From a virus, in the IMG/VR virus record IMGVR_UViG_3300044237_004403, positions 1 to 20,282 of that record: 20,282 nt of DNA, one strand, 5' to 3'. The position numbers and the translations under genes were made by a program. Shown here piece by piece: positions 752 to 17,433 of the stretch. The notes beneath the pieces are model-generated. The model was not told where the DNA came from. It saw nothing but the letters and a program-made list of their open reading frames with translations, and ran no database searches. The first letter of the stretch is position 1. Each line of letters begins with the position of its first letter.

Positions 752-3700
752 TTTATCTAAAACATATGTAAATTACAATGGTCAATTAGTTCCACGTATT
801 ACTGGTGCTGGAGGCGGTGGTAAAGGCGGCGGTGGAGGAGGTATCTCAGAAGATCCTAACTCACTTTTTTCTACTGATATTTTATTTGTTACTATCGGGC
901 TAGGTGAAGGTCCCGTATATCGCATTAACCCTAATGGCCCACAAGATATTGAGATTCAAGACGGAGCTATTGATGATCTAATCATCTTAGATGGTGATGG
1001 AAGCGAAGATACTGAGCAATTTAAAACATTAACAAATACAGGCACAACTACTCAGTCTCCATTAAGAGTATTTGGAGAAACAATAACAGCTCCCCAAAAT
1101 TTTAAATCTCCTGTATCGTTAAAAAAAGGCAACGTAGACGGCATACCAGCAGCAAAAGTAACACTACAAGATACTAGTGCTAATGATTGGGACTCTATTA
1201 AGTTTGGTTTCGTCTTACAAGGATTAACAAGAACTGATGATGATGGAAATATTCATGGTCATCAAGTATCTATCAAAATTACCGTTTTTGATCGAATTGG
1301 AACAACAGAAATTGCTTCTATAAGTAAAACTGTAGACGGTAAAACTAATGTTCCTTTTAAATTTACTGTTCGCGTGAATATACCTGAACAATTTAAATCA
1401 ACAGATGGTTATAAATTTACAATTGAAAAAACTTCTGATGATACCGAATCTTCTTTAATTAACGAAAACATTCAATCATTTGGATGGTTTGAGATTGAAA
1501 ATTCTCCACAATCTTATCCTCGTACAGCGCATATTGGTTATGCACTGAAAGCTACAAATGAACATAAAGGTGGTATTCCAAATTTTACTTCAATGGTAAA
1601 AGGTCTTTTAGTCAAAGTTCCATCAAACTATAATCAACCAATTTTGGCTAATGGTGAGATAGATTGGCGTGAGCTTGAGTTAGAAGAAACTGGTTCAAAT
1701 GGTTATACAACTAATGGTTATAGACTTCAAAAATCTGGTACAGGCACTATTTTAACTGACGCAAATCCGCAACTGTACGTTGGAACTTGGGATGGGACTT
1801 TTGTCTATTCATGGACTCAGAATCCTGTATGGATTATCTATGATATCTTAACTAATAAAACATATGGTTTGGGTGTCCCTGAAGAAAATGTTGATAAATT
1901 TAAATTTTTTCAAATAGCACAATACTGTGATGCCTGTGATGTAACAACAGGAGAGTTTCAAGGTGTTAACGGTCAAGCAGATGGTTCTTTCAGACACAAA
2001 CCTTTAGGTAAGTTTACATCAGTTCGTGAAACTTTAATTGGAGTTCCGGCTGGCACTGTTGTAAAAGAGCGTAGGTTTATGTGCGACATTACGATATCAG
2101 ACCAAGAACAATCAATGGATATATTAAATACAATTTGTGCTTCATTTAGGGGTGCGCTTGTTTATACTCTAGGTAAACTTTCGTTGGCTGTAGATATGCC
2201 AGATGAATTTCCCATGATGATTTTTAATGAAACTAATATTCAAACTGGCTCTTTTCAAATTAGCGGAACAAAAGAGAGTGAGATTATCACTGGAGCTGAT
2301 GTAAGCTACTTAGAGCCAACTAATCATTATAAACGAGAGACAGTAAGGATTGATACTGTAGATGCTAATGATGGAAATGACCGTAATACAATAGAAAACA
2401 TTGCAACTATAGATTTACCCTCAGTAACTCGGCGTAGTCAAGCATTAAGGTTTGCTCAATATCAAATTGCCGCCTCAAGATATCAAAGAAGAACTATAAA
2501 TTTTGTGACCTCTACTGACTCACTTTCACTTTCTCCAGGTGATTTAGTATCAGTTTCTCAGAATATGACTGGTATTAATTTTGGATACGGCGGTAAAATA
2601 CATGCTAATGCCTCAACAGATTCTAATTCAGCTAATATACTATTAGAGCATTTTACTGAACCAACTTTAGCATCATCAACTTTTACCGCCAATTCTGATC
2701 CGTTAGCGCTTCGTATTATTTCTTTAGACAGTGATAGAATTGATCTCTATGTTATTGATAATGCAGCATTTACTCTTACATCTACAGATAATGTATCCAC
2801 AGGATTTGATCTTGCTAATGTTTCAGTGGTAGGCAGATTTAATCCAATTACAAAAGCCATTGATTCATACACAACTTTTACATCAAATAATGTTCCAAAG
2901 AAAGGGGATTTATGGTCACTTGGTGAGTGGCAGAATCCTGGAGACTTTTACACTAATAAGTCAGGTAAGCTTTTTAAATTAACTGATATTTCTCGTGATC
3001 CAGAGAAAGAAGAAATTACAATCGGTGCTATTGAGTATATTTCTAATATTTACGTAGATTCAGATACTTTTATTGACTATACACCTACCCCTTATACTGA
3101 TATCATATCTACCCTTTCTACTCCGCCCACACCTGAATTTAACTTTTCAACTCGTGCTGTAAGAACTTATGATGGCAGCATAAGAACAGATGGTGTGGTT
3201 GAGATTAACACTGAGCGTGAAGATTTCAATCAATTGTTTAAGACTGAATTTTTCATTGCTCAACCAGAAGGATCTACTCTTTTAAATAATGTCACTGCTC
3301 AAAACCCTCTTACTTTTACAAGCGAAAATAATTCAGTTACCATAGATGGAGCCTCTCCTGTTTCGATCACTGGAAAAAATGGATTTTCTGGATTTGCTGG
3401 TGAGCTTAGAATGTTGTGTACCGATGTCACTGTTGTAGATACTGATGATGGTTCGTCCGGTAATGTTCAGTTTACTATCAGAGGATTAAATGATGCTTTT
3501 GATGAAAACTTTAATAAGCACATTCTTTCTGTTAACGATGCGAGTTTTGCTGGGTTAAAAGGTTTTGATGGTATCAGATTTCCAGTAAACCAAAAATCTT
3601 CTCAAAACAGTAAAAGAAACTTTGTTGCATTTGGTGGTGTGGAAACAGAAATTAGTGCTAACGCCCTTGCATTCGATACTAGCACTAATACCCTTAAGAT

Positions 3701-6446
3701 TGATAACTTTACAACAGGTTCACAAACAATATTTGACAGAATGCCTTCTGCTCCTTTTTTTGTAAAATTGGACCAGTTGTTAGACGCAAGATTTTATGCA
3801 AACTTAAGTTTTTATGTGTCAGGAACAGAAAAAACCTTTATAGATTCAGGTAGCTTGAGTGAGGGTTTAAATACTATTAATTTACCAGTCAAATCAGATA
3901 GTGCTAATTTTATAAGATTTTTTTCAGACGGAATAGAAAAAACAGCTGGACAATTTATTTATAACAAGAACGAGTCTCTTGAATCTGCAAACATACAATA
4001 CACAGCTCACAATGAAAACATCTACAGAGTAGAGATAGACCACTATACAGTTCCAACAATTGAAGTGGGCGATAATGTACAAGTTAGTTTTAATAATACT
4101 TTTAGTGTAATTAATACGTCGTATGACACCGATTCAGCAGAGTATAATGCTAGTGCGACAGCAAATTCTATTTTTAGAATATATCTTGCAACTAAGCCTA
4201 AAACTAATCTTGCTAGTAAAGTTTTCACTAATATATCAAAAAATCCTGTTGGTGTTATTAACAATGTTTCAGGTTCTACTTTTACTTTTGATTATGATAC
4301 CACAAGATTTCCAGGATCATTTAATTTAACTAACAATAAACTCTATACTATGACTATCAATAATGAGTTTGACAAAATAACGTTACCTCAAGATAGAATT
4401 ATAAAAGATCTACCTCTTGGGATAACCTCTCTTAGAGCTAGAAACAGAAATCCTCTAGGTAGATTCTCAAACTTTTCTGAAAAAAGTGTAGTAGTTGAAA
4501 CTCTACCAATTCAAAAAATTACTAATGATTTAGTAACTGAGTCTTTGTACAGAGAACAAAATTCTGGAGTGTCAGTAAGAGTTACTCTTAGTTTTGATCA
4601 TATAACAGACCAAGAAGTAACTGATTATGAAATTTCGTACAAGTTAGACAATGTTGCAGATGTAGGGGCTGATGATGGTGGCGCAGACTTAACTAGTTTT
4701 AATACAGTTAAAGTTCCAGCTCTCGGAGTAGATTCAGACGGAAAAATAAGATTTACTGTTACAGGCATTAACAGAGGAATAACAAGTGAGTCTAACTCGA
4801 TCACTTTTAGAGTGACTCCTTTGAATAAAAATATTAGAGGCACTACAAAAACAATCTCAAAAACAATTATCGGTAAAACTGCAAAACCAGCTAATATATT
4901 TAACCTAACAGGAGGACAACAGTCTGATCAGGTAACACTATTTTGGGAATATACTCGTAACACAGAAACTAACGAGTTAGTGGATCTCGACTTAAAAGAG
5001 GTAATTATTACTCGTGTACCTGGCGAGTTAAATGCAACTGAAAGTAATTTTTTAGCTGGAACTCCTTTTGTAACTGTTGCAGCAGGAGTTAACAGAAAGT
5101 CAGTTCCTATTGACACTTTTGGAACTTTCACCTACTTAGCAAAAACAAGAGATACTAGTGGTAATTTTAGTGAATCTGTTGTAAAAATTACTTTAACAAC
5201 TACACGACCTCAAGGAACAACTGTTGTTGCAGCTTTTAATGAAGACAATCCCTCAGAAAACTTTACAGACATAACAAATACTAATGCAGGTGAAACAAAC
5301 TTTCCTTCATTCGCTAACTCAAATACTGGTGGTCTATCTTTTGATTTTACCTCCCTTGTAGACAATGCAAACGGAACATCACAAGGATTTTCTGTAGTAG
5401 CTGGAGAAGCAACTGATTTATTAGCTGATGAAGAAGCTACCTATATTACCCAAGTTAGAGACTTCGGAGTAATTGTTAATGGGATCATAAATGTTGATAT
5501 TGAAGGAACACAAGTAACCCAGTTAACTTATTTTGATCAACATGAACATGTAGTCGAAAGTGTAACAGAAACTGCCCCACTCGGGAATGTATTATATGAT
5601 TCTTCTTTTGGTGGAATAGGTCATTTAGTTGGTTTTTCTAATACTGCTGTTGTAAACCCACGATTTGATGCTAATAATAAAACCCTAGTCAGCGGTTCTG
5701 CGTCAGGAGCATCAAGTAAGGTGTTTGGAATACACTTACATGGAAACTTTACAAATGATACATCAAACGCTAACGTGTTTGCACTAATAGCAGGATCTAT
5801 AAATGCAAATGCTATTGCTTTAGGTGAAACGTTTTTTGCTAATGGTGAACCAACTGGTGGTAATACCTATGCTAATATTGCAGTGGCAGGCACGTCCTAT
5901 TTATTAGTTGATTTTAATCAATATGATGATGGAGGTTCTACCGAAACTTATGTAGGGTCTTTTGGAGGACTAACTTCACAAACACTCATTAGAACTTCAA
6001 CAGAGGACGATGTGTTTTTTGCAAACGGTAATGTAAATCTATCAGCTTTTGTTGGGAGTGAGGTTAATGAAGGTTTTGTTCCTTATGAAGCTGGTTCAAG
6101 ATCTTTTAGACACTTCCAATTAAAATTTGTAGTAAACAATTCAAAACCAGATGAATTAGACTTTACAATTGATAAGTTTAGATATACTATAGAAAAAGAG
6201 CAAGCCGTTTTTGAAGATACAGTCACTTATAACGCTAATCCAACTACAGTTGATTACTCTAGTTTTAGTTATAAGAATAGACCTGTAATTAACTTGCAAC
6301 CTATTGATACTGCAACAGCTCAAACAGCCGTGGTAACTGCAGGATCAAATTCAAGTGTGTCTTTTAGATTGTTCGATTTAGAGGCTGGAACTAATGCTCC
6401 TACAGATCAGAGTATTCAAGTTCAAGTATCAGCTACAGGGGTGTAA
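744..6446 (+). CDS. J: gpJ-like tail tip / host specificity protein, 1900 aa
   Basis: This is the central tail tip protein that contacts the host receptor. Near the N-terminus is a glycine run (about residues 22-34), then LGEGPVYRINPNG, the start of the conserved J region. PVWIIYDILTNKTYGLGV (about residues 361-378) is the J signature, and residues about 455-600 (SMDILNTICASF through SLSPGDLVSV) resemble the tip-J/phage-tail-3 domain. Fibronectin-III-like beta segments follow (about 1260-1490, including KPANIFNLTGGQQSDQVTLF). The last 400 residues are Asn/Thr/Gly-rich and unrecognised, probably receptor-facing. Lambda gpJ is 1132 residues, so this protein is much longer, with extra beta-rich modules between the tip domain and the fibronectin part and at the C-terminus. 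TTG start with AGGAG. The gene order supports the call strongly. Confidence 0.9.
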   Translation: MTSLSKTYVNYNGQLVPRITGAGGGGKGGGGGGISEDPNSLFSTDILFVTIGLGEGPVYRINPNGPQDIEIQDGAIDDLIILDGDGSEDTEQFKTLTNTGTTTQSPLRVFGETITAPQNFKSPVSLKKGNVDGIPAAKVTLQDTSANDWDSIKFGFVLQGLTRTDDDGNIHGHQVSIKITVFDRIGTTEIASISKTVDGKTNVPFKFTVRVNIPEQFKSTDGYKFTIEKTSDDTESSLINENIQSFGWFEIENSPQSYPRTAHIGYALKATNEHKGGIPNFTSMVKGLLVKVPSNYNQPILANGEIDWRELELEETGSNGYTTNGYRLQKSGTGTILTDANPQLYVGTWDGTFVYSWTQNPVWIIYDILTNKTYGLGVPEENVDKFKFFQIAQYCDACDVTTGEFQGVNGQADGSFRHKPLGKFTSVRETLIGVPAGTVVKERRFMCDITISDQEQSMDILNTICASFRGALVYTLGKLSLAVDMPDEFPMMIFNETNIQTGSFQISGTKESEIITGADVSYLEPTNHYKRETVRIDTVDANDGNDRNTIENIATIDLPSVTRRSQALRFAQYQIAASRYQRRTINFVTSTDSLSLSPGDLVSVSQNMTGINFGYGGKIHANASTDSNSANILLEHFTEPTLASSTFTANSDPLALRIISLDSDRIDLYVIDNAAFTLTSTDNVSTGFDLANVSVVGRFNPITKAIDSYTTFTSNNVPKKGDLWSLGEWQNPGDFYTNKSGKLFKLTDISRDPEKEEITIGAIEYISNIYVDSDTFIDYTPTPYTDIISTLSTPPTPEFNFSTRAVRTYDGSIRTDGVVEINTEREDFNQLFKTEFFIAQPEGSTLLNNVTAQNPLTFTSENNSVTIDGASPVSITGKNGFSGFAGELRMLCTDVTVVDTDDGSSGNVQFTIRGLNDAFDENFNKHILSVNDASFAGLKGFDGIRFPVNQKSSQNSKRNFVAFGGVETEISANALAFDTSTNTLKIDNFTTGSQTIFDRMPSAPFFVKLDQLLDARFYANLSFYVSGTEKTFIDSGSLSEGLNTINLPVKSDSANFIRFFSDGIEKTAGQFIYNKNESLESANIQYTAHNENIYRVEIDHYTVPTIEVGDNVQVSFNNTFSVINTSYDTDSAEYNASATANSIFRIYLATKPKTNLASKVFTNISKNPVGVINNVSGSTFTFDYDTTRFPGSFNLTNNKLYTMTINNEFDKITLPQDRIIKDLPLGITSLRARNRNPLGRFSNFSEKSVVVETLPIQKITNDLVTESLYREQNSGVSVRVTLSFDHITDQEVTDYEISYKLDNVADVGADDGGADLTSFNTVKVPALGVDSDGKIRFTVTGINRGITSESNSITFRVTPLNKNIRGTTKTISKTIIGKTAKPANIFNLTGGQQSDQVTLFWEYTRNTETNELVDLDLKEVIITRVPGELNATESNFLAGTPFVTVAAGVNRKSVPIDTFGTFTYLAKTRDTSGNFSESVVKITLTTTRPQGTTVVAAFNEDNPSENFTDITNTNAGETNFPSFANSNTGGLSFDFTSLVDNANGTSQGFSVVAGEATDLLADEEATYITQVRDFGVIVNGIINVDIEGTQVTQLTYFDQHEHVVESVTETAPLGNVLYDSSFGGIGHLVGFSNTAVVNPRFDANNKTLVSGSASGASSKVFGIHLHGNFTNDTSNANVFALIAGSINANAIALGETFFANGEPTGGNTYANIAVAGTSYLLVDFNQYDDGGSTETYVGSFGGLTSQTLIRTSTEDDVFFANGNVNLSAFVGSEVNEGFVPYEAGSRSFRHFQLKFVVNNSKPDELDFTIDKFRYTIEKEQAVFEDTVTYNANPTTVDYSSFSYKNRPVINLQPIDTATAQTAVVTAGSNSSVSFRLFDLEAGTNAPTDQSIQVQVSATGV

Positions 6447-6448
6447 TA

Positions 6449-7690
6449 GTGGCATTAACCAATTCAAACACATATATTGAGCCAACTGCGGGAACTTCTA
6501 TTAATACTGGTAGAATTCAGCAAAATAACTCTTTGCGTTCTCTATTAACAAATTTCAGATCATCTTCAGCACCAGCTCTTATAAATATTACTGCAAGCGG
6601 GGAAAATATTGATGCACAAGATGGTATGTTATTTAAAATGGCTAATAATAACGTATCAGCCCTATATATTTCAGATTCTGTAAATAAAAAGACTTCTCCA
6701 GTTGGAGGTAATTTTACCAGAGTTGGAATTGGTAATAGAGTCGAAGAAGGTATTGTATCGTTAGCTGCTAATATTACTCATTATGAGATTGGAGAGTTAG
6801 TAGCGACTCCTTCAGCAGCTGGTGCATTGGCATCAAATGCTAGACTATACATGATAACAAGTAACTCTGCCAGTATGGCAAGTGTTAAAGACGTTGGTAT
6901 CCCGCCAACTAATGGTTCTGTTACTAATACCATGCTCGCCACTAATTCTATTACCTCAGATAGGATTAAAGATGGCAACGTAACACTTGATAAGGCAGAT
7001 TTTACCACAGGCACTGGAGATGGTGGTGTAGGTTCTGCAGCTACTTTAAAACTTTCTTCAACATCTGGAGCAGATACTTCTATAGGCTTAAGCACTCGAA
7101 ACACTTCTTCAAATGTCGCAATTGTGCACATTAACGGAGGGACAGGTGTATTATCAGGTCTTAAAGTAATTAATCAATCGTCTGCTTATATCCCTGTCAC
7201 TTCTAACCTAGCACTTCAATCTGCTATACAAGGGGGCACAACTGAACCAGTTCCAGTTGTTCCTGCTGGGTCGATTATGGCATGGAGTGGATCTTCAGCT
7301 CCCTCTGGCTGGTTAATTTGTGATGGAAGTGCTATATCAAGAACTACCTACGCAGCTTTATTCGCTGTTGCAGGCACTACGTATGGCCCAGGTAATGGAT
7401 CAAGCACTTTTAACGTACCTAATTTACAAGATAGACTGCCTTTAGGAAAGGGAACTAATAATAGTACATTAGGCACCCAAACAGGCTCAATGAGTAGTTC
7501 TTCTTCAGTAACCACTGATTCTGGTGGATCAGGCGGTATAACTCTAACTACGGCTACAAGAGATGATGCTCTAGGTAGCGGAACTAAGGATGTGAGTCAA
7601 ATTGCACTTGTAACTGGAGTTAGTCAAGCTGCTCACACCCATACTCTTACTGTTCCAACCTCTGTAGTAAATTATATTATTAAAACGTAA
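6449..7690 (+). CDS. Tail fibre protein with phage tail collar domain
   Basis: The GTG start is two bases after the tip gene, with AGGGG (6437-6441) seven bases upstream. The N-terminal half is Ser/Thr/Asn-rich, with a segment NSITSDRIKDGNVTLDKADF (about residues 168-187) like the shaft or adaptor motifs of many phage fibres. From about residue 271 there is a collar domain (PAGSIMAWSGSSAPSGWLIC, then NVPNLQDRLPLGKG). The C-terminus carries AHTHTL and ends VVNYIIKT; a His-x-His motif near a fibre tip binds iron in some characterised fibre and spike tips, so metal binding here is a reasonable inference. The protein is 413 residues and probably forms a trimeric fibre at the tail tip. It shares its first residues (MALT) and the I-T-S motif with the second fibre downstream. 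The specific receptor cannot be predicted. Confidence 0.85.
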   Translation: MALTNSNTYIEPTAGTSINTGRIQQNNSLRSLLTNFRSSSAPALINITASGENIDAQDGMLFKMANNNVSALYISDSVNKKTSPVGGNFTRVGIGNRVEEGIVSLAANITHYEIGELVATPSAAGALASNARLYMITSNSASMASVKDVGIPPTNGSVTNTMLATNSITSDRIKDGNVTLDKADFTTGTGDGGVGSAATLKLSSTSGADTSIGLSTRNTSSNVAIVHINGGTGVLSGLKVINQSSAYIPVTSNLALQSAIQGGTTEPVPVVPAGSIMAWSGSSAPSGWLICDGSAISRTTYAALFAVAGTTYGPGNGSSTFNVPNLQDRLPLGKGTNNSTLGTQTGSMSSSSSVTTDSGGSGGITLTTATRDDALGSGTKDVSQIALVTGVSQAAHTHTLTVPTSVVNYIIKT

Positions 7691-7701
7691 AGGATATAAA
7701 A

Positions 7702-8175
7702 ATGGAATATTTTAAATTTCACATTGATGAAGATGACGCAAAAACTGTATACTGTGCGTATCGTGACTTATCAAAAGGTAAATCTTCACCTCTTTTAATT
7801 CGATCATTTCCGCTCGACATTATTGCAGAGAGTGAGCCTAAAATTAATGAAATGGTTGAAGGTGATATTACTGATGTGTACTATGAAGAATTTAATGAAG
7901 AAGTTAGAGCATCTGAAATTAAATGGTTTTTAGGTGAAAAAGAAACAAACTCTGAAGAGGATGTTGATTGGATAAAAACTTTTGTTAAATGTGCGTGTGT
8001 TAATGAAGATTATGATGAGTTAATTGCACCACCAACAGTTGATCAACAAGTTGAAGACTTTATTAAAGAGTTTTTTGAAGAAGATGAAATAGAAAATCTT
8101 GACGATGAAAAGCCTCTTGAACAAAAAGACTTTTTAGCGGAATTTTTTGCAGAGCTTGAGGAAGACTCTGAATAA
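7702..8175 (+). CDS. Small highly acidic protein between the two tail fibre genes
   Basis: A 157-residue protein with AAAGGA before its ATG. It has no motif I recognise. The first two thirds look like a compact domain (MEYFKFHIDEDDAKTVYCAY at the start, and IKWFLGEKE around residue 74), with several cysteines. The last 45 residues are dominated by Asp and Glu (FFEEDEIENLDDEK, FFAELEEDSE), giving a strongly acidic tail that is probably flexible. Its place between two fibre genes is where many phages keep a fibre-assembly chaperone, so a chaperone or fibre accessory role is possible, but this is inference from position only. An acidic DNA-mimic role is an alternative without direct support. Confidence 0.75.
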   Translation: MEYFKFHIDEDDAKTVYCAYRDLSKGKSSPLLIRSFPLDIIAESEPKINEMVEGDITDVYYEEFNEEVRASEIKWFLGEKETNSEEDVDWIKTFVKCACVNEDYDELIAPPTVDQQVEDFIKEFFEEDEIENLDDEKPLEQKDFLAEFFAELEEDSE

Positions 8176-8185
8176 GGACGTATAA

Positions 8186-9922
8186 ATGGCATTAACTCGT
8201 ATAACCACTGGATCTATAAGCGCGAATACAATCACTTCTGAAAAGGTGCAGAACGCTTCTATTCAAGCTCGTCATTTTCAGGTAGGTACGATTACTAATA
8301 ACTTGTTAGAGGCAAACGCTAACGTTGCAGCAGCTGAGACTAGAGTTAATGCTAATTTAGACATCGTACAAGACAATGTTGTAATTGTTAATAACTCTGT
8401 TAATACTGTACAAGATAATGTTGTAGCTGCTGAAGCAAATGTAGTACTTAATACTTCTAATATTGATTCTTTTGCAAGTTTTGCAAATACTAACCTTGAT
8501 ACAAAAGCAAATGTATCAGCTACTTATTTTCTAGCTCTTGCAAATGACCTTGCTACTTTTACTAATATAACTGCCAATCTTGACATAGTACAAGATAATG
8601 TAACAGCAGTAGAGACTCGAATCAATGCTAATCTTGATACAACATCTGACAACGTAACTAATATTATAAACGGAACAACACCTTTTACAGGTGCTGTTAC
8701 TATGCAAGATGATCTTACCATTCAAGGAAACTTAACTGTTGCGGGAAATTTTGCTAATTTAGCTGTTACTGATTCATATACAGATGATCGTCTAATTATT
8801 TTAGCAAACTCGTTCACAGGTGCCCCATCTTTAGATGTGGGTATATTGTTAAATCGTGGAAATGATGGTAATGTTTTTATAGGATACGACGAATCTGAAG
8901 GAGAGATAGCTCTTTTACATAATCAAGATCCTGCAAGTAACACGTCTATATCTGCAACCGGGGCTGCAAATCTAAGACTTCAGCGTGGTTATTTTGATGA
9001 TGGTACAGTATCTCTCCCATCTATTACTTTTGATGGTGATGATAATACTGGTTTGTACAAATCTACAACTGATACTTTAGGTATTGCTTCAGGCGGAGTA
9101 GAGGTTATAACTGTTGGTCCAGACGGTGCTACTACTATAACTTCAGATGATGCTGGTTCTGCAGCAGGTCCTGAATTGACTTTATACCGTAACAGTGCTT
9201 CTCCTGCAGCGGCAGACTATATCGGTCAGGTGATGTTTAAAGGTGAGAATAGCACTGGGGGCGCAGAGAACTATGCTAAAATTACAGGTAAGATTACAGA
9301 TCCAACAGCAGGCTCCGAAGATGGTTTAATAGAGACAGCAATTAAAGGTGCGGGCTCCTTTACGATTGTAAGTCGCCAAAATGCTACTCAACTTCAATTA
9401 TTAAATGGAGTAAGTTTAGATGTTGATGATGATGTAACTGCTTCTAATATTTCTGCATCTATCGATCTAATCGCAACAAATGCTGTCATATCACCTTTGA
9501 TGTTTGAGAATGGTGTAGGTATGTCAGCTAATGATAGTGCTACCTATTTTGCTGCTTATGCTAATGATTACATTACTTACACTCGACTTAATGCAAACGT
9601 TAACTCAGTGCAAGCAAACCTAAGCACAGCTCATACTGATTTATCTTCTAATATCAACACAGTTCAAAACAATGTTGATGCAATTACAGGAGGAAGCACT
9701 TTATTAACACCTTTCACTAATGTTAACTCAGCTTTAGGCACTTCAAATGTATTTTTTGTGGGTCGTGATATTGGAGCTGAGGCTAATGTTGTTCTTGTGA
9801 TGTTAGATGGTGTCTCACAACCAAATACAGAATATGAAGTAAATGCTTCAAACAATACAGTTCAATTTACTGATGCCACTATTCCCTCTGGTACAACCGT
9901 TCAAATTTTCTCATTGAGTTAA
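8186..9922 (+). CDS. Second tail fibre protein, coiled-coil repeats with a duplicated module
   Basis: Starts MALTRITTGSISANTITSEK with AAGGA six bases upstream. Residues about 45-165 carry short repeats with NLDIVQDNV and NANLD-type units, spaced like a trimeric coiled coil. A central globular part (about 180-430) contains DGDDNTGLYKSTTDTLGIAS, a motif common in phage fibres of the Gly-Leu-Tyr type. A 58-61-residue module starting SATYF occurs at residues 111-168 and again at 451-511, on either side of the central part. The C-terminal domain (about 512-578, VLVMLDGVSQPNTEYEVN) is a small beta domain seen at the end of many marine phage structural proteins. It is probably a distal fibre or baseplate-linked fibre. 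It ends in a TAATG overlap with the radical SAM gene. Confidence 0.85.
   Translation: MALTRITTGSISANTITSEKVQNASIQARHFQVGTITNNLLEANANVAAAETRVNANLDIVQDNVVIVNNSVNTVQDNVVAAEANVVLNTSNIDSFASFANTNLDTKANVSATYFLALANDLATFTNITANLDIVQDNVTAVETRINANLDTTSDNVTNIINGTTPFTGAVTMQDDLTIQGNLTVAGNFANLAVTDSYTDDRLIILANSFTGAPSLDVGILLNRGNDGNVFIGYDESEGEIALLHNQDPASNTSISATGAANLRLQRGYFDDGTVSLPSITFDGDDNTGLYKSTTDTLGIASGGVEVITVGPDGATTITSDDAGSAAGPELTLYRNSASPAAADYIGQVMFKGENSTGGAENYAKITGKITDPTAGSEDGLIETAIKGAGSFTIVSRQNATQLQLLNGVSLDVDDDVTASNISASIDLIATNAVISPLMFENGVGMSANDSATYFAAYANDYITYTRLNANVNSVQANLSTAHTDLSSNINTVQNNVDAITGGSTLLTPFTNVNSALGTSNVFFVGRDIGAEANVVLVMLDGVSQPNTEYEVNASNNTVQFTDATIPSGTTVQIFSLS
8516..8689 (+). repeat. Fibre module, copy 1
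   Basis: Codes residues 111-168 of the second fibre: SATYFLALANDLATFT, then VQDNV, then ending NGTTPFT. It aligns with copy 2 without gaps for about 50 residues, with shared SATYF, AND, VQxN, NVxxI and GxT positions. At the DNA level the copies have diverged considerably, so the duplication is old. Confidence 0.7.
9536..9718 (+). repeat. Fibre module, copy 2
   Basis: Codes residues 451-511 of the second fibre: SATYFAAYANDYITYT, then VQANL and NNVDAITGG, ending TLLTPFT. It is the counterpart of copy 1, with three extra residues before TPFT, and separates the central domain from the C-terminal domain. Confidence 0.7.
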
Positions 9923-10908
9923 TGGATAAAATCAAACAGCTAACAACAGAATTGACGTTTAGGTGTAATGCTAAGTGTCCTGCTTGTCATCGTTGGAAGC
10001 CTCTTAGTATCAATCTTAATGACGCAAAGTATACAATCACCTTAGAACGCTTTACTCAACTTTTCAATCCAGAGTTACTTCAAAACTTAGACTGGTTAGT
10101 GCTTAACGGAAACTTTGGTGATTCTATAATGAACAAACAGTTTCGTGAAATTATTTCTTATGTCAAGTCTAATGGTACACGTCTTTTGATTCATACGAAT
10201 GGTGGTATACATAATCAAGAGTATTGGACTGATGTAGGTAACATTCTCACAAACCGTGACATTATTAATTTTGATTTAGATGGTTTAGCAGACACTCATC
10301 ATATCTACAGAATTAATACTCAGTTTGATAAAGTGTTAGAGAATGCAAAATCAGTTATCGCAACAAACCGTGCACAAGTGCATTGGAAGTACATAGTGTT
10401 TGAACATAACAAACATCAGGTAGAGGATGCTCGTGAAATAGCAAAACAAGCTGGGTTTACAACTTTTTCTACAGTCAAAACATCACGTGATGTATTTGCT
10501 CCTAAAACAGGTTCTTTCGTTCACTCTAAAAAGACTCAAGAGTATCAACAGGCTGAGAGAAAGATTCATTGTGTGTGGAGTGATTGGGGAAAATGGTACG
10601 TTTCACCAGAGGGTTTAGTTTTTAGGTGTTGTTGGACAGGTGGTCATTACTATGATCAACAAAATGATAAATTTTATTATCCACCCCAGTTTGAACGAAT
10701 GTTTAATGGATTTGAGGTTCCCATTCAAAAAATTATATCGTACAATTATTGGACAAAGTTACAACAATATTTACAAGGATATGACCGATCGTTCAAACTA
10801 TGTAAATCACAGTGCGGAAAGATTGTTTCATCTATAGAGAAGACAGAAGAAAATTTAAAAACAGGTGAGCAGACTGAAGTAGATGCAAAAAACCAATGGG
10901 GAAATTAA
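9922..10908 (+). CDS. Radical SAM protein with SPASM/twitch-like C-terminus
   Basis: The N-terminus has the radical SAM cluster motif C15-x3-C19-x2-C22 (ELTFRCNAKCPACHRW), which binds the [4Fe-4S] cluster used to cleave S-adenosylmethionine. Further family features follow: LNGNFGDSIMN (about 60-70), LLIHTNGG (about 89-96) and DLDGLADTHHIYR (about 117-129). The C-terminal part holds C217, C236-C237 in GLVFRCCW, and C294-x3-C298, the layout of a SPASM or twitch domain with an auxiliary cluster. SPASM proteins often modify peptides or proteins. The substrate here is unknown. The start overlaps the fibre stop by one base (TAATG), so the enzyme should be made with the tail proteins. Its 328 residues are a normal length. 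The family is clear; the role is not. Confidence 0.88.
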   Translation: MDKIKQLTTELTFRCNAKCPACHRWKPLSINLNDAKYTITLERFTQLFNPELLQNLDWLVLNGNFGDSIMNKQFREIISYVKSNGTRLLIHTNGGIHNQEYWTDVGNILTNRDIINFDLDGLADTHHIYRINTQFDKVLENAKSVIATNRAQVHWKYIVFEHNKHQVEDAREIAKQAGFTTFSTVKTSRDVFAPKTGSFVHSKKTQEYQQAERKIHCVWSDWGKWYVSPEGLVFRCCWTGGHYYDQQNDKFYYPPQFERMFNGFEVPIQKIISYNYWTKLQQYLQGYDRSFKLCKSQCGKIVSSIEKTEENLKTGEQTEVDAKNQWGN

Positions 10909-11120
10909 TGAGAAAACCTGAAGTATTACGCAAAATTGGAAAATTTAAGTTTTTAAGATTCCCTAATCAGGGTATACGCCGTAATAAACGGATTAGAGAA
11001 CTTGCCACATCAGGAAAATTAAGTTATCCTACACTTGAAAAATTTATTGAGCGAGAACGTTCGCTTGGATATCCAATTAAATATTCTAAACCTATAGGCT
11101 TTAAAAGGAAACGCAAATGA
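10908..11120 (+). CDS. Small basic protein, unknown function
   Basis: A 70-residue Lys/Arg-rich protein, MRKPEVLRKIGKFKF at the start and GFKRKRK at the end. I chose ATG 10908 because it makes the same TAATG one-base overlap with the preceding stop as the previous junction and has GGGGA (10898-10902) five bases upstream; an in-frame ATG at 10896 would add four residues. The charge suggests nucleic-acid binding or packing in the virion, but no domain is recognised. It overlaps the next gene by ATGA. Confidence 0.72.
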   Translation: MRKPEVLRKIGKFKFLRFPNQGIRRNKRIRELATSGKLSYPTLEKFIERERSLGYPIKYSKPIGFKRKRK

Positions 11121-11734
11121 GAAAAGATGGACACACAGACGTATCTTCTTCACGTAGAATGTGCAAAACTATTATAGAAGATGCAAATGATATTTTAGAC
11201 GCATTACCAAGAGATATGGAAGCTTCTCTTCCGACTTGGTGGACGAACAAACTGGCAAAAAGTTCAGCATATATGAATAGCACTCGTGATTATTTAGTAT
11301 ACTCTGATTTTCCAATGCAAGAGCCTCGTGAAGAAATGAATGATGAAGAGGTAATGATTCCTATGGGTCAAGTAAAAGTTGGTGACTATCAAACTAAACA
11401 CTTTGACATATGCCCTGCTGCGCAAGCAGTGTATAAAGATATTGAGCCTTCAGATGAGGCAGTAGAATCTGCTATACTACATGATATGTTATTTAAGGTA
11501 GAAAAGAAAGCTATTGCAGATAATATGGCAACACAGGATCAGGTTGATAAAACTCAACACTATGCTGATATGATTATGGAACTTGCTGAAGAAATGAATA
11601 TGGTTGATGAACATTCATATGTAGAAGATGTTCACATGACAAAAATGAAAGAATTAGCTGGAATGAAGCAGGAGGAAAATGAAGATGAAGATGATATGCT
11701 TCCTCCGTCTGTGAGAATGATGAATGCCACTTAA
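11117..11734 (+). CDS. Conserved phage hypothetical protein with SLPTWWTNKLA motif
   Basis: A 205-residue protein whose ATG overlaps the previous stop (ATGA), with AAAGGAAA just upstream. The N-terminal region is helical: MCKTIIEDANDILDAL, then SLPTWWTNKLAKSSAYMN and RDYLVYSD. I recall this Trp-containing arrangement from hypothetical proteins of marine phages, where a short helical domain of this kind recurs. The C-terminal half is acidic and Met-rich (AEEMNMVDEHSY, KQEENEDEDD). No catalytic motif is visible. Position between the fibre genes and small virion-type genes suggests a virion or assembly role, but this is inference. Confidence 0.78.
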   Translation: MRKDGHTDVSSSRRMCKTIIEDANDILDALPRDMEASLPTWWTNKLAKSSAYMNSTRDYLVYSDFPMQEPREEMNDEEVMIPMGQVKVGDYQTKHFDICPAAQAVYKDIEPSDEAVESAILHDMLFKVEKKAIADNMATQDQVDKTQHYADMIMELAEEMNMVDEHSYVEDVHMTKMKELAGMKQEENEDEDDMLPPSVRMMNAT

Positions 11735-11927
11735 ACGAGGTAAATCTCAAAAAACCATATCAACTAATATTAAGGAGCTAATGAAAAAACCTTCAAAAGC
11801 TCGTGCTAGAGGCGTGCGCACCTTGGCCAAACGTATGGGTATTACACAGAAAGAAGCACAACGTCGTCAAGCGGTAGCGATTGCTCTTCGTGCGGCAGGA
11901 AAGCCTCTTTCAAAACGTAAGAAATAA
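11724..11927 (+). CDS. DUF6496-like small basic protein
   Basis: A 67-residue protein starting MPLKRGKSQKTISTNIKELM and ending QAVAIALRAAGKPLSKRKK. This start and end are typical of a small phage/bacterial family (DUF6496-like), in which the Lys-Gly-Lys-Ser start and the QAVAIAL-AGK end are conserved. Here an insert of about 25 basic residues (KARARGVRTLAKRMGITQKEA) separates the halves. It overlaps the preceding gene by 11 bases; AGAATGATG is the only purine-rich run in front. Function is unknown; nucleic-acid binding is possible from the charge. It is the last gene before the internal promoter. Confidence 0.75.
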   Translation: MPLKRGKSQKTISTNIKELMKKPSKARARGVRTLAKRMGITQKEAQRRQAVAIALRAAGKPLSKRKK

Positions 11928-11930
11928 AAA

Positions 11931-11959
11931 TTGACACTTAAATGTTTATTTGTGATAAT
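11931..11959 (+). promoter_or_regulatory. Near-consensus sigma70 promoter
   Basis: TTGACA (11931-11936), a 17-base spacer, and GATAAT (11954-11959) preceded by TG at 11951-11952 (extended -10). The -35 is perfect and the -10 differs in one base. It lies in the only real gap of the plus-strand block and faces the gene at 11995, leaving a leader of roughly 30 bases. Confidence 0.8.
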
Positions 11960-13258: not shown

Positions 13259-13795
13259 TTAGTTAGTTAATAAATTCTTAATCCAAACTTTTTCATACGG
13301 AGCGCAGACCCAAAACTGCGCTCCGCTTGTTTTTACTATTCTTCCGATTACATCTTTTGTGTCAACGTCACATGATATAAAAATCATATCATTTTCAGTA
13401 AAATTACTATAATCAAATAATACACCATCAGCCTCTATGATGGTTATTGAGCCTTTAGCAGGAGTTTTTTCAATAATTTGTTTTGAAAGAGTTGCACAAG
13501 AAGATAAAATTTCAATACCAAAATAAGACTTATCAGGAAATCTTTTAAACATATCAATCAAAGAATATGGGTACATTCCTGAGCCGACTAACAGTATTTT
13601 ATCAGCATTATTAAGTAGTTTTTTTAAACCCTTATCAATTATAGTTTTGTAGATCCAAGAATGTCTTGCATAAATATATTTATATAAGTTTTCTACTTCA
13701 TTATTGTAAAAGTGTTTTTTTATTCTAAAAAGCTCACTTTCAATATTTCTCTTTTTCCATTCTTGTCTAGCTTTTATAAGTTCTGATGATTTCAT
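13259..13795 (-). CDS. Class I SAM-fold protein resembling nicotianamine synthase
   Basis: A 178-residue protein. KILLVGSGMYPYSLIDMF (about 66-83) is a SAM-binding motif I with the Pro-x-Ser form typical of nicotianamine synthase-like proteins, then an acidic residue at the end of strand 2 (FGIEIL, E95) and a strand-4 region EADGVLFDYSNF followed by DMIFIS. Nicotianamine synthase joins aminocarboxypropyl groups from SAM, whereas most of this fold transfer methyl groups; which reaction applies is open. It is shorter than full nicotianamine synthases. The start overlaps the upstream glycosyltransferase by 29 bases and there is no later methionine near the N-terminus. It is the last gene of the minus-strand operon, and its C-terminal codons (for GAQFWVCAP) also contain the plus-strand terminator. 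Confidence 0.65.
   Translation of the reverse strand: MKSSELIKARQEWKKRNIESELFRIKKHFYNNEVENLYKYIYARHSWIYKTIIDKGLKKLLNNADKILLVGSGMYPYSLIDMFKRFPDKSYFGIEILSSCATLSKQIIEKTPAKGSITIIEADGVLFDYSNFTENDMIFISCDVDTKDVIGRIVKTSGAQFWVCAPYEKVWIKNLLTN
13298..13334 (+). terminator. Intrinsic terminator of the plus-strand block, inside the opposing gene
   Basis: CGGAGCGCAG (13298-13307) and CTGCGCTCCG (13316-13325) form a perfect 10-bp stem with an 8-base loop, followed by CTTGTTTTT. It is notably GC-rich for this AT-rich region. Only the plus orientation has a T tract; the minus transcript continues TATGAAAAAG after the stem, so it should not stop there efficiently. It lies 40 bases after the last plus-strand stop codon. 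Confidence 0.88.
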
Positions 13796-14879
13796 TTACT
13801 GACTTTTCAACCCCCATCATATCAAACTTAAATTTTTTAGGTTTAAAATTTAAGACATCTCTTAATGTAGATTCAAGTTTTGAAAACTCTTGAGTATTTA
13901 ACACTTTAAAAAATTCAAACGGTTCAAAAGTGTAACATCTAACAAATTGCTCTAACTTTTGGCCATCTTGTCTAGGAACTAAAATAGAAGGCACTCTACC
14001 CTTTAATACCTCCATTGTAGTGTTATATCCACCATACGAAATCAGCGCAGAGCAATTTTGTAATTTTTTACCTAGCTCAGGTATATAATTAACAAAAATC
14101 ATATTGTCTCTTACAGTGCCTGATAAGTTACGATGCTTATTTGCAATTGGCATTACAAACTTATAATCAGGAAATTTATTAGCTATTTTGGTAATTTCTT
14201 TAAAAAGTAAAAGTCCTTCGTTTTTATTAAGACCTGTAGTAACGTATATGTGATTATTTTTTCTGCTGTGAGTCTTTATAGACTTATCACAGACATAACC
14301 TGTATATGTAATTTTTTCTTCAATATCTTCTATAATTGCTTTTGAATTAGCTACTCTTGTTCTATCACTATAGAGAGGGAGTATATTTGGATCGCCATGA
14401 ATTAGTATCTTATCAACATAATATTTACAAACTAAATTTTGTGTATAATTAACCCAGTCTTTTAACTGGTCCTCGTGTGGATCATCCCAGGGAAAATCTC
14501 TTGCTGATACTATAATTTTAATATCTCTTTTTTTACATTCTTCCAGAAAAGTAAAATATTCATGAGCATATTGATGCCTACAAAAAGGAAATCCCTCAAT
14601 AACAATTAATTTGAAATCGTATTTATTCAAAATTTCTTTAAATTTTTTAATCCTTAAATGAACCATTTGTTCACTCATTATAAAGCCAGAAAAGCTTTTA
14701 CTATCTGGAACTTCTATACCATCCATAAACGCTATCATTGGAACTTTATATTCTAATGGAGGTCTAAACATAGACTCAATTATAAAAACATCACTGTATT
14801 TCGCAGTTTCCTCTGCTATTAGTTTTGTTCTATTACTATGACCTAGACCATATACATATTGAGTTACAAAACCAATCAT
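13767..14879 (-). CDS. GT-B fold glycosyltransferase (GT28/MurG-like)
   Basis: A 370-residue protein. The start MIGFVTQYVYGLGHSNR has the N-terminal Gly-x-Gly-His loop of GT-B enzymes of the predicted-glycosyltransferase type (COG4671-like). The C-terminal half has IYVTTGLNKNEG and then SYGGYNTTMEVLKGRVPSIL (about 278-297) and LEQ, the nucleotide-sugar binding motif of the GT28 C-terminal domain. It would move a sugar from a nucleotide donor to an unknown acceptor in the cytoplasm. I use ATG 14879, which forms a TAATG overlap with the thyX stop; an in-frame ATG at 14942 would add 21 residues that are only thyX sequence read in another frame. No membrane segment is evident. Confidence 0.8.
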   Translation of the reverse strand: MIGFVTQYVYGLGHSNRTKLIAEETAKYSDVFIIESMFRPPLEYKVPMIAFMDGIEVPDSKSFSGFIMSEQMVHLRIKKFKEILNKYDFKLIVIEGFPFCRHQYAHEYFTFLEECKKRDIKIIVSARDFPWDDPHEDQLKDWVNYTQNLVCKYYVDKILIHGDPNILPLYSDRTRVANSKAIIEDIEEKITYTGYVCDKSIKTHSRKNNHIYVTTGLNKNEGLLLFKEITKIANKFPDYKFVMPIANKHRNLSGTVRDNMIFVNYIPELGKKLQNCSALISYGGYNTTMEVLKGRVPSILVPRQDGQKLEQFVRCYTFEPFEFFKVLNTQEFSKLESTLRDVLNFKPKKFKFDMMGVEKSVNEIIRTYKS

Positions 14880-15544
14880 TATCCGCGAGGATTGAACCAA
14901 CGTTCTGCAAATGGGAAGATTTTGACTAATTCTTCTCCGCAAGCCTTAGCTATTTCAATATGCTCTTTTTGAGTTCCGTGAGAGGCTCTTAATTCAATAT
15001 AATGAATCCAGGATCTAAGAGTCCCATTCATATAAATTCTTGATTTCATCATACCCTCTGGTAATACAGCACGAGCTTGTTCTTTAGCTATACCCATATC
15101 TAAGGCCCAATTGTATGATTGAATAGCAGCTAACTTCACCTTATCTTGTTTTATAAGCCACTCATCGTGTAACTCTTTACTATTAGTTTCGATTGAGTTT
15201 TGTCTATTTTTACTATCTTGTAATCTAGCCTCTCTGTTAGTCCAACCTAAAGTGTCAGTTGGGTCAGCGTATCTCTGAGAAAATTCTTGAAATGAAAATG
15301 ATCTATGACGAAGAATCTGACGAGCAATATCGCGGGTAGTTTCTATTTCCATACAGACAGAAACCATCTCAAAAGGCGACCAGTGATTTTCTCTCATCAA
15401 ATATTTTAATAGTTTTTCAGACGTTTCAGTGCTCATTTGATTATCAGGATTAGAAACCCGAGCACAATAGGCAACTAAATCTTCAGCATTATTAATTCCA
15501 ATCATATCTACAGGTTGTGAATAAGATATTAACCTAACTTTCAT
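14879..15544 (-). CDS. thyX: Flavin-dependent thymidylate synthase ThyX
   Basis: Makes dTMP from dUMP with methylenetetrahydrofolate and FAD/NADPH. The signature RHRxxSx4SxRY is intact as RHRSFSFQEFSQRY (residues 79-92). Other ThyX features are CARVSNPD (27-34), HWSPFE (54-59) and the C-terminal ARAVLPEGM and MNGTLRSWIHY. At 221 residues it is a normal length. I chose ATG 15544, which has GGAG six bases before it and begins MKVRLISY as other ThyX proteins do; an ATG four codons earlier (15556) is possible but places that GGAG inside the gene. It overlaps the upstream dUTPase-fold gene by 11 bases and the downstream gene by one. Phages carry ThyX to raise thymidylate supply during replication. 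Confidence 0.96.
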   Translation of the reverse strand: MKVRLISYSQPVDMIGINNAEDLVAYCARVSNPDNQMSTETSEKLLKYLMRENHWSPFEMVSVCMEIETTRDIARQILRHRSFSFQEFSQRYADPTDTLGWTNREARLQDSKNRQNSIETNSKELHDEWLIKQDKVKLAAIQSYNWALDMGIAKEQARAVLPEGMMKSRIYMNGTLRSWIHYIELRASHGTQKEHIEIAKACGEELVKIFPFAERWFNPRG

Positions 15545-16103
15545 TTTTATCTCCATAAATATTAATTATTTTTTCCCTACTATATTGCTCAGTAGTCTTT
15601 GTTTTACTTCTACCTCTAATTTGATCCTTAATTCTTTTAATAAAAGTTTTTCCAGAATCCATTTTCCAATCGGATTTTTCTATCTGATCAACGTATTTTA
15701 TTACAATTCTTGGAAGTAATTTTATAGTCATATGTGCTATTTTTTGACCGGGCTTTATAATCACAGCTTCAACATTTTTATTTTCAAGATGTACCCATAT
15801 TTCATCTCTAAACGTGTAAGGAAAGTAAGTTACTCCTTCAGGCATACATACGCCGTAATTGTAAATTAAACCACTAAGAGAGTTGATCTCAATAATAAAA
15901 TGAGGGTTTATAATCTGTGGATATATACCTGTTGGAAAAGGAATGATTTCATTAGGTTGTAGAGTAATTGATTCATCTATACAAGCTCTGAGGTGATAAA
16001 AAGGTTCTAAATGGTTATAGACTTCAAATGACCAGCTTATACCTAATATCTTCTCAAGTTCTCTTGCTTTAGAGCTTTTTTCTATTTTAACTTCACAGAT
16101 CAT
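15534..16103 (-). CDS. dUTPase-fold protein with altered catalytic motifs
   Basis: The chain follows the trimeric dUTPase plan but departs from it at catalytic positions. YHLRACIDESITLQPNE (36-52) and IPFPTGIY match motif I and the strand after it, with His where AGYDL has Asp. NSLSGL (74-79) stands for RSGL and lacks the Arg. GVTYFPYTFRDEIWV (90-104) stands for GTIDxxYRGEI and lacks the catalytic Asp. PGQKIAHMTI (118-127) is motif IV with His for Gln. WKMDSGKTF sits where the GGFGSTG motif should be. It may have lost dUTP hydrolysis and be a regulatory or binding protein; a distant dCTP deaminase relative is less likely. I use ATG 16103 (11-base overlap with the exonuclease); ATG 16157 would give 207 residues with a 65-base overlap. 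Confidence 0.75.
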   Translation of the reverse strand: MICEVKIEKSSKARELEKILGISWSFEVYNHLEPFYHLRACIDESITLQPNEIIPFPTGIYPQIINPHFIIEINSLSGLIYNYGVCMPEGVTYFPYTFRDEIWVHLENKNVEAVIIKPGQKIAHMTIKLLPRIVIKYVDQIEKSDWKMDSGKTFIKRIKDQIRGRSKTKTTEQYSREKIINIYGDKNES

Positions 16104-16935
16104 TAAGTCTTGCAAGTGGTTCATCTCCGTATTTACCTGATGAAATCGCATCAACACAATATTTTTTAAGGTTAATTAGTTTTTCATTTCTGATTAGTTG
16201 TTCACGACCAGCGTTAAGGTTATTTATATATTTTGATCGTCCTTTAATAGGTAAAGCTTCTAGTAGATTATCAAGTGTTTTATATTCACGTGCCAGCCCT
16301 TGAGCACGTTTAGGACCAATACCTTCAATTCCTAAAATATTATCTGATTTATCACCTTCAATAATTCTAGATAACATATATTCAGACGGTGTAACTTCAA
16401 AATCTTCTTTTAAAGTTTGTAGAGTGACTTCTTTGCGCCCAAAAATATTGAAAATTGATATATTTTCATCAATTAATTGATATAAGTCACGGTCTGAAGA
16501 TACGATCCAAGTATGGTCATATTTATCAGATATATTCTGTGTAATCCAAGCCAAGATATCATCAGCTTCAACACCTCTAAATTTTAATACTTCATCATCC
16601 AGCTGATTAGGTAACTCGTTGAGAACTGCGAAAAATTCTTCGTATTTTTTTGCCTCATCATCATCTTGAGGTTTTTTACGAGTGCCTTTATATTCATCAT
16701 GCATATCCATTCTATAGTAAGATTTTCCGAAATCAAAACAAACAATTGTTCTTGTGGCCTCATATGATTTTGAAAGTGATTGAATTGTACGAATAAAATC
16801 AGAATCAAACGAAGAGTAGTTGGGTCTTTGAAGCCAACGATAGGATAAGTTGTTTGCATCGACTATTAAAAGATTATTATAGGTCGAGTAGTCTGGCTCT
16901 TGCAAGTCTGCAAGATCATTCCAAGATTTGGTCAT
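16093..16935 (-). CDS. 5'-3' exonuclease / flap endonuclease family (T4 RNase H-like)
   Basis: A 280-residue nuclease for removing RNA primers and 5' flaps during phage replication. The metal-binding motifs of the FEN/Pol I 5' nuclease family are in order: LLIVDANNLSYRW (22-34), CFDFGKSYYRM (66-76) with the following EYKGTRK, GVEADDILAW (121-130), IVSSDRDLYQLI (144-155) and GDKSDNILGIEGIGPKRA (194-211), the last containing the helix-hairpin-helix that grips DNA. All expected acidic residues are present, so it should be active. The start is clear: AGGAGATAACTATG. There is a 36-base gap before it, the only non-overlapping stretch of any size in the minus-strand block. No polymerase domain is attached. 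Confidence 0.93.
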   Translation of the reverse strand: MTKSWNDLADLQEPDYSTYNNLLIVDANNLSYRWLQRPNYSSFDSDFIRTIQSLSKSYEATRTIVCFDFGKSYYRMDMHDEYKGTRKKPQDDDEAKKYEEFFAVLNELPNQLDDEVLKFRGVEADDILAWITQNISDKYDHTWIVSSDRDLYQLIDENISIFNIFGRKEVTLQTLKEDFEVTPSEYMLSRIIEGDKSDNILGIEGIGPKRAQGLAREYKTLDNLLEALPIKGRSKYINNLNAGREQLIRNEKLINLKKYCVDAISSGKYGDEPLARLNDL

Positions 16936-16971
16936 AGTTATCTCCTGTCTTTATAAATAACTATACCAATT

Positions 16972-17433
16972 TTATGAGGAAGTAGCAAGATCAGTTTGTT
17001 CTTTTATGGCATCAATCCAGTCATCAAGTTTTGTTAACTTGAAGTGACATCCATATGATTTAACTTCTATAAAAAAGGGAACTTTTAAATCATCATTAAA
17101 AGCTACAAAATCCTTTGAGCGATTCCATCTAAATATTAACAACGGCTTTTTTTTCATTACTTCTGCTTCTCTAACAGTTTGTCTCCAAAAGCTAAGAATG
17201 TCCGTGGTTTTTGAGGTAAGTAGATTATTCCATTGTAAATCTTTATAATGTTTACACTCTATTGCGTAAGGCCACCACGCTGTGTCGTAGGGAGTCCAAA
17301 TATCACCTTTTAAATAATCAATTGATCCTGATAGAGGAACTCTCCTAAATTCTACACCAAATTCTGCTGTAAGTCTTGTTGCTATTTTTTGTTCGTATGC
17401 AGAGCCTTTTGCTTTGCTTTTATTGTGTGCCAT
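16972..17433 (-). CDS. PD-(D/E)XK nuclease, probable Holliday junction resolvase-like
   Basis: A 153-residue protein with the PD-(D/E)XK pattern: E14 in the first helix (GSAYEQKIATRL), D44 in LKGDIW, and E59-x-K61 in YAIECKHYK. The basic N-terminus (MAHNKSKAKG) and a late stretch of Trp and Gln (DILSFWRQTVREA) are like phage resolvases and RecB-type nucleases. It may resolve branched DNA before packaging or act in repair; the exact substrate cannot be told. AGGT lies seven bases before the ATG. It overlaps the upstream gene by 14 bases and is followed by the exonuclease, which fits a replication and recombination pair. Confidence 0.8.
   Translation of the reverse strand: MAHNKSKAKGSAYEQKIATRLTAEFGVEFRRVPLSGSIDYLKGDIWTPYDTAWWPYAIECKHYKDLQWNNLLTSKTTDILSFWRQTVREAEVMKKKPLLIFRWNRSKDFVAFNDDLKVPFFIEVKSYGCHFKLTKLDDWIDAIKEQTDLATSS

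Follow-up and report, generated by a model that had tools for sequence, protein, structure and literature searches.

A radical SAM enzyme fixed within a phage tail gene module, and its motif-bearing neighbour

Introduction

On what does a radical SAM enzyme act when its gene lies directly behind a phage tail fibre gene? The question arises from a 20,282-nucleotide stretch of viral DNA (IMG/VR record IMGVR_UViG_3300044237_004403; hereafter the window), in which an initial annotation had recognized a SPASM-like radical SAM enzyme coupled to a fibre gene and followed by several tiny genes, and had suggested that it might modify the fibre or a small virion protein. Radical SAM genes have been described from other phages: in Campylobacter phages they form exchangeable modules with an amidinotransferase (PMC2853527), in pelagimyophages they lie in the host recognition cluster (PMC7029224), and in a Baltic virome study some viral radical SAM genes were called 'ahbD', a functional inference its authors deemed speculative (PMC9301287). 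A literature search for radical SAM enzymes of phages that act on virion or structural proteins, or on RiPPs, found nothing relevant.

Results

Cysteine motifs and class of the enzyme

The open reading frame, profile matches and structure comparisons all identify the gene at 9922–10908 (+ strand) as encoding a radical SAM enzyme of 328 aa with an ATG start. The TAA of the fibre gene (9920–9922) and the ATG of the enzyme gene (9922–9924) share a single base in the sequence TAATG at 9920–9924, just as the initial annotation had it. The annotated cysteines were likewise borne out: the enzyme has the CX3CX2C radical SAM cluster motif C15-x3-C19-x2-C22 (CNAKCPAC; 9964–9987, + strand) and five C-terminal cysteines, C217, C236, C237, C294 and C298, and all eight are invariant in 24 of 24 diverse homologues. 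In the alignment, C217-x13-G231-x4-C236-C237 (10570–10632, + strand) corresponds to the first half of the SPASM/Twitch auxiliary-cluster motif (PMC6231123) and C294-x3-C298 (10801–10815, + strand) to the remaining Twitch cysteines.

The complete SPASM motif, CX9-15GX4C-gap-CX2CX5CX3C-gap-C, has seven cysteines and two auxiliary clusters (PMC6231123), and Twitch domains have its first four cysteines only, CX9-15GX4C-gap-CX2C (PMC6231123, PMC9012708). All that the enzyme has of the former is C217-x13-G-x4-C236, C237 and C294-x3-C298. Because the SPASM cysteines of the second auxiliary cluster are absent, we call it Twitch-like rather than SPASM, and it probably carries one auxiliary cluster. The first half of the Twitch motif fits, and the last pair is CX3C instead of CX2C, in a C-terminal region modelled with low confidence. 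The original label of SPASM-like is thus correct as to the SPASM/Twitch class of radical SAM enzymes and incorrect as to SPASM proper.

With CX3CX2C near its N-terminus, a partial TIM barrel and profile matches, the enzyme belongs to the radical SAM superfamily. It matches PHROG 21308 ('radical SAM') with an E value of 1e-28, NCBIfam models of the SPASM/MoaA type match within its barrel, and Pfam Radical_SAM (PF04055) matches with an E value of 2e-4, which falls under the curated cut-off; 24 of 24 family members match this last model, the best at 6e-6. PF13186 aligns in register over residues 217–298 at 8.4 bits against a cut-off of 21.5, and matches 18 of the 24 family members, all weakly.

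The AF2 model of the enzyme has a good barrel (approximately residues 30–187) and a poor C-terminus, and we found no RiPP recognition element (RRE) fused to it, the modelled barrel beginning at residue 4. Its top structural match is the cytosylglucuronate decarboxylase BlsE (7vob; Foldseek E 5e-7, VIA-align Z 14.2 over 243 residues), followed in VIA-align comparisons with the model by SuiB (13.4), SkfB (13.3), MoaA (12.6) and PqqE (12.4); DesII is also among the matches. We counted the peptide maturases SuiB, SkfB and PqqE in favour of a protein substrate, and the lack of an RRE, together with a sugar-nucleoside enzyme as the best match, against it.

Distribution of the family

Scanning IMG/VR with the enzyme protein and two alignments yielded 100 distinct full-length enzyme genes, roughly 65–100% identical. 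A scan of a genome collection for bacterial relatives gave only one remote Vibrio match, and among phage isolates only remote relatives (21–27% identity) were found, in Campylobacter phages and in Pelagibacter phage Mosig. From these searches the family appears to occur only in phages that are uncultured, mostly marine and equipped with a lambda-J-like tail tip; the marine origin is presumed from the relatives and their setting.

The enzyme is a fixed member of a tail module

The gene run to which the enzyme belongs is headed by a central tail fibre or J-like tip protein (744–6446, + strand; profile matches), followed by a collar-domain tail protein (6449–7690, + strand), by a small acidic protein that we call chap (7702–8175, + strand; a working name only, which implies no chaperone function) and by a modular tail fibre of 578 aa (8186–9922, + strand). 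This order of genes, from J to the enzyme, does not vary across the loci of the family. Upstream neighbours were counted where at least 2.6 kb of sequence precedes the enzyme (89 distinct genes), and downstream neighbours where at least 4.3 kb follows chap (47 distinct genes). A chap gene with at least two copies of the motif described below precedes the fibre in all 89 enzyme loci, an abutting fibre open reading frame lies directly 5' of the enzyme in 88, and when the search was started from chap the enzyme was found 3' of it in 47 of 47. The one-base overlap of fibre and enzyme recurs in 62 of the 88 loci, with the remainder within −9 to +11 nt. The enzyme is therefore a fixed member of a tail module consisting of collar, chap, fibre and enzyme; the gene-neighbour survey proposed in the initial annotation upholds its placing of the enzyme in a tail operon in steady company with the fibre, and the outcome that would have spoken against it, homologues lying mostly away from tail genes, did not occur within the family.

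From the collar gene through chap, fibre and enzyme to the third gene beyond, no intergenic gap exceeds 11 nt, so a hidden gene for a precursor peptide does not fit there. The only sizeable gap between the collar gene and the end of the run of small genes is one of 67 nt after the 67-aa gene, where a promoter-like sequence is found (11931–11959, + strand; TTGACA-17-GATAAT, 11 of 12 positions, with TG before the second hexamer), although promoter-like matches in total do not exceed those in shuffled sequence.

The downstream small genes do not follow the enzyme

The initial annotation had looked to the tiny downstream genes for a substrate. These are s74, a basic 74-aa gene overlapping the end of the enzyme gene (10896–11120, + strand), g205, a 205-aa gene (11117–11734, + strand), and s67, a conserved basic 67-aa gene (11724–11927, + strand). 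All three also occur without the enzyme (s74 in L183 and L198, for instance), and they are lost, replaced or displaced in several lineages that keep it; in the deeper lineages the genes behind the enzyme are gone or exchanged while chap, fibre and enzyme are intact. We therefore rejected them as main substrate candidates, and the idea of a small-protein substrate survives in another form, since a better candidate, chap, lies upstream, where it had been missed; that any virion protein is modified is what we infer. In one contig (L108, 7193–8040) g205 is duplicated in tandem, and the near-identical contig L107 has a single copy.

A near-invariant motif in the tail of chap

The chap protein of the window has 157 aa, is acidic and belongs to no known family; across the family chap proteins are acidic and have 150–200 aa. 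An N-terminal domain (residues 1–100) is folded in the AF2 model (pLDDT about 95) and is followed by a tail in which each copy of a motif forms a short helix, with a low-confidence linker between them. No significant fold match to the N-domain was found in BFVD or the PDB, and chap was not found in INPHARED phages. The motif, [D][F/Y][L/I]xEFF, is near-invariant and occurs in two or three copies in 117 distinct genes (two in 76, three in 41); in the loci examined for it, the pattern is present in no other open reading frame. In the window the copies are DFIKEFFEE (8056–8082, + strand) and DFLAEFFAE (8128–8154, + strand). Their codons vary synonymously, and pN/pS, to be read with synonymous sites near saturation, is 0.045 for motif 1 and 0.113 for motif 2 against 0.60 for the fast-evolving N-domain and 0.55 for the inter-motif linker.

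We propose the acidic tail of chap as the likeliest substrate or docking site of the enzyme, chiefly because a constant enzyme is here paired with a constant short motif. The charges are opposite as well (pI 8.9 for the enzyme, 4.05 for the chap tail), which suits binding. With hydrophobic residues at i, i+1, i+4 and i+5, the motif could also be a plain amphipathic docking helix, and the copies might then be an assembly or docking signal only, for example the tail of a fibre chaperone that binds another virion or host protein, with an unrelated substrate of the enzyme encoded elsewhere. An acidic amphipathic helix in variable copy number is typical of short linear binding motifs, and the N-domain of chap covaries most with the fibre N-terminus (0.75) and the collar C-terminus (0.68). 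We nevertheless judge this quite unlikely, as it leaves unexplained that chap and the enzyme never occur apart and that the enzyme stays beside the fibre while its other neighbours change.

The fibre as a candidate substrate

The fibre itself is the other candidate named at the outset, and its conserved N-terminal end is what we propose as the second-likeliest site. The abutting genes and their shared base speak for modification of the fibre at this attachment region, as does the fact that the first approximately 45 residues are recognizable in every fibre, those of 214 aa included, while the remainder is highly variable among relatives. However, even this N-terminus has a mean pairwise identity of only 47%, and none of the conserved positions of the fibre shows repetition or near-invariance comparable to that of the chap motif. 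The enzyme remains 78–79% identical where the fibre is reduced to 214 aa, and in L002 and L003 it is 97% identical beside a fibre that is only 49% identical. The fibre is thus possible as a substrate but constrained, and we consider its modification unlikely.

Overall, the mean pairwise identity of the enzyme is 0.76 compared with 0.40–0.47 for the ends of the fibre, and an enzyme so much more conserved than the fibre is expected if it acts on something constant. Correlating identities revealed no specific co-evolution of enzyme and fibre: general phylogeny dominates, and the pairwise distances of the enzyme correlate with those of the flap exonuclease (0.83) rather than following chap or fibre specifically. 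Over 6449–11734 of the window, L002 and L003 are only 49–57% identical in collar, chap and fibre, with 97% identity in the enzyme and 100% in the downstream genes, a pattern that we read as a probable recombination breakpoint at the fibre–enzyme junction.

Relatives that lack the module

A search anchored on the 67-aa gene, and so not selecting for the enzyme, recovered relatives in which the collar gene is directly followed by s74, g205 or s67 and in which chap, fibre and enzyme are all absent; the C-terminal part of their collar protein also differs, with an end resembling an S74 chaperone. Record-wide searches found neither enzyme nor chap in the 14 enzyme-less virus records. L195 was ruled out as an enzyme-less relative, the whole-contig search finding enzyme and chap just past its initial flank, and in a tree of the flap exonuclease the enzyme-less lineages form one clade only. 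The co-absence of chap, fibre and enzyme accordingly rests on that single clade and on phages more distantly related. As proof of function it is weakened further, in that the clade also lacks a glycosyltransferase, a methyltransferase-like gene and a dUTPase gene that is unrelated, which makes joint absence less informative than joint contiguity.

The slot between collar and g205 is variously occupied. In L179 (1271–6604) and L181, which have no chap–fibre–enzyme unit, it is occupied by a cassette that comprises another radical SAM gene, one that is SPASM-bearing, a cytidylyltransferase of the CMP-sugar synthetase type, a sulfotransferase, an aminotransferase and a capsule-synthesis-like gene. 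Contig G004 (L321 / L195), in which chap, fibre and enzyme are intact, has a glycan-type cassette of a DegT aminotransferase, further radical SAM genes and an epimerase inserted directly behind the tail enzyme, before g205.

Genes on the opposite strand

Two genes on the opposite strand share the presence and absence of the enzyme: a glycosyltransferase (Glyco_tran_28_C; 13767–14942, − strand) and a methyltransferase-like gene with a generic SAM-binding match (13259–13795, − strand). All 42 loci examined that carry the enzyme have both, and whole records without the enzyme have neither. A second methyltransferase-like copy lies beside the first in L051, L052, L054, L061 and L065, and a strong terminator-like hairpin (13298–13325, + strand; 10 pairs, 8 of them G-C) lies inside the 3' end of this convergent gene.

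These two genes open a different reading, in which the enzyme has a small molecule, perhaps a sugar nucleotide, as its substrate and works with their products, leading to a change in the host surface or to a glycan, and travels with the fibre since both concern receptor use. They are as faithful to the enzyme as chap is, BlsE is the best structural match with DesII also listed, the same genomic slot in relatives holds other radical SAM genes together with genes for a CMP-sugar synthetase, a sulfotransferase, an aminotransferase or an epimerase, and the host recognition cluster of pelagimyophages combines radical SAM cassettes with glycosyltransferases (PMC7029224). Yet the enzyme stands alone in a late tail operon with no sugar genes adjoining; the glycosyltransferase and methyltransferase-like genes are not adjacent to it, and the former lies with replication genes on the opposite strand. 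Conservation of the enzyme is high, too, in spite of a strongly variable fibre and hence, presumably, receptor, and the dUTPase has the same presence pattern in the clade without the enzyme, so the pattern by itself does not imply shared function. We regard this reading as a serious rival, if a somewhat unlikely one.

The remainder of the opposite-strand block (18565–20249 and 14879–17433, − strand) comprises thyX, a dUTPase-like gene, a 5'-3' exonuclease, a resolvase-like gene and further unassigned genes. Within it an amidinotransferase/pentein-like protein (PHROG 25854; 19212–20249, − strand), which is not obligate in the clade, is 31% identical to CPT_0086 of Campylobacter phage CP220, encoded within the radical SAM cluster of that phage. 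The nearby thyX and dUTPase-like genes, and a match of the enzyme to the PADLOC viperin model (E 9e-7), would suit a radical SAM enzyme that takes part in modifying DNA or nucleotides, or one that acts on nucleotides as viperin does. We think this very improbable: the viperin match covers only residues 10–164, the shared radical SAM barrel, the enzyme gene is part of the late tail operon, and some relatives that carry the enzyme (L163, L187) have no thyX. L333 has no thyX either.

Discussion

Our favoured reading, held tentatively, is that the enzyme has one of the proteins of the receptor-binding tail module as its target during virion assembly. The [D][F/Y][L/I]xEFF repeats in the tail of chap, the likeliest site, would be either the modified residues or the docking sites; the CX3CX2C cluster would cleave SAM, the resulting 5'-deoxyadenosyl radical would abstract hydrogen from a carbon in a side chain or in the backbone, and an electron would pass to the auxiliary cluster, leaving an oxidized or crosslinked residue. 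That the substrate is a protein, which protein it is and what chemistry it undergoes are all things that we infer. A more specific scheme, which we put forward as rather doubtful, is a RiPP-like maturation of the tail in which the enzyme would modify or crosslink the chap motifs, each chap molecule offering two to three sites, either ahead of fibre assembly or in the course of it.

If the enzyme does modify a structural protein of the phage, tail assembly would gain a step of chemical maturation, and RiPP-type chemistry would reach into virions. One group of the many radical SAM genes that marine phages carry, otherwise classed as metabolic helpers, would also be accounted for. Even with another substrate, the strict unit of enzyme, fibre and chap is a specific and testable pairing.

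Comparison with known radical SAM systems

The enzyme is a new, apparently phage-specific branch of the Twitch-like radical SAM enzymes with a newly recognized motif-bearing partner. Like the Twitch enzymes BtrN, MoaA and SkfB (PMC9012708, PMC6231123), it combines a CX3CX2C barrel with a C-x9-15-G-x4-C element and two more cysteines. It differs from them in ending with CX3C rather than CX2C and in having an additional adjacent cysteine, C237, within a C-terminal half modelled at low confidence; SkfB moreover has an N-terminal RRE, which the enzyme lacks. BlsE, its best structural match, is only 15–19% identical; its substrate is a nucleoside sugar of an antibiotic pathway, and it has no association with tail genes. 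PqqE and SuiB share the fold (Z 12–13), and the notion that the operon itself supplies the enzyme with a ribosomally synthesized substrate is common to both cases; they have a full seven-cysteine SPASM domain, however, and the present enzyme is without the cysteines of the second auxiliary cluster.

Among phages, the radical SAM proteins of Campylobacter phages CP220 and CPt10 and of pelagimyophages (PMC2853527, PMC7029224) are the distant relatives at 21–27% identity. Their gene clusters are often near tail or baseplate genes, as here, and include glycosyltransferases and an amidinotransferase. Those clusters, however, are multi-gene exchangeable cassettes, and the present gene is not a cassette of the host-recognition-cluster kind: it is a single enzyme gene, in the same position across its family, fixed behind the fibre in the company of chap.
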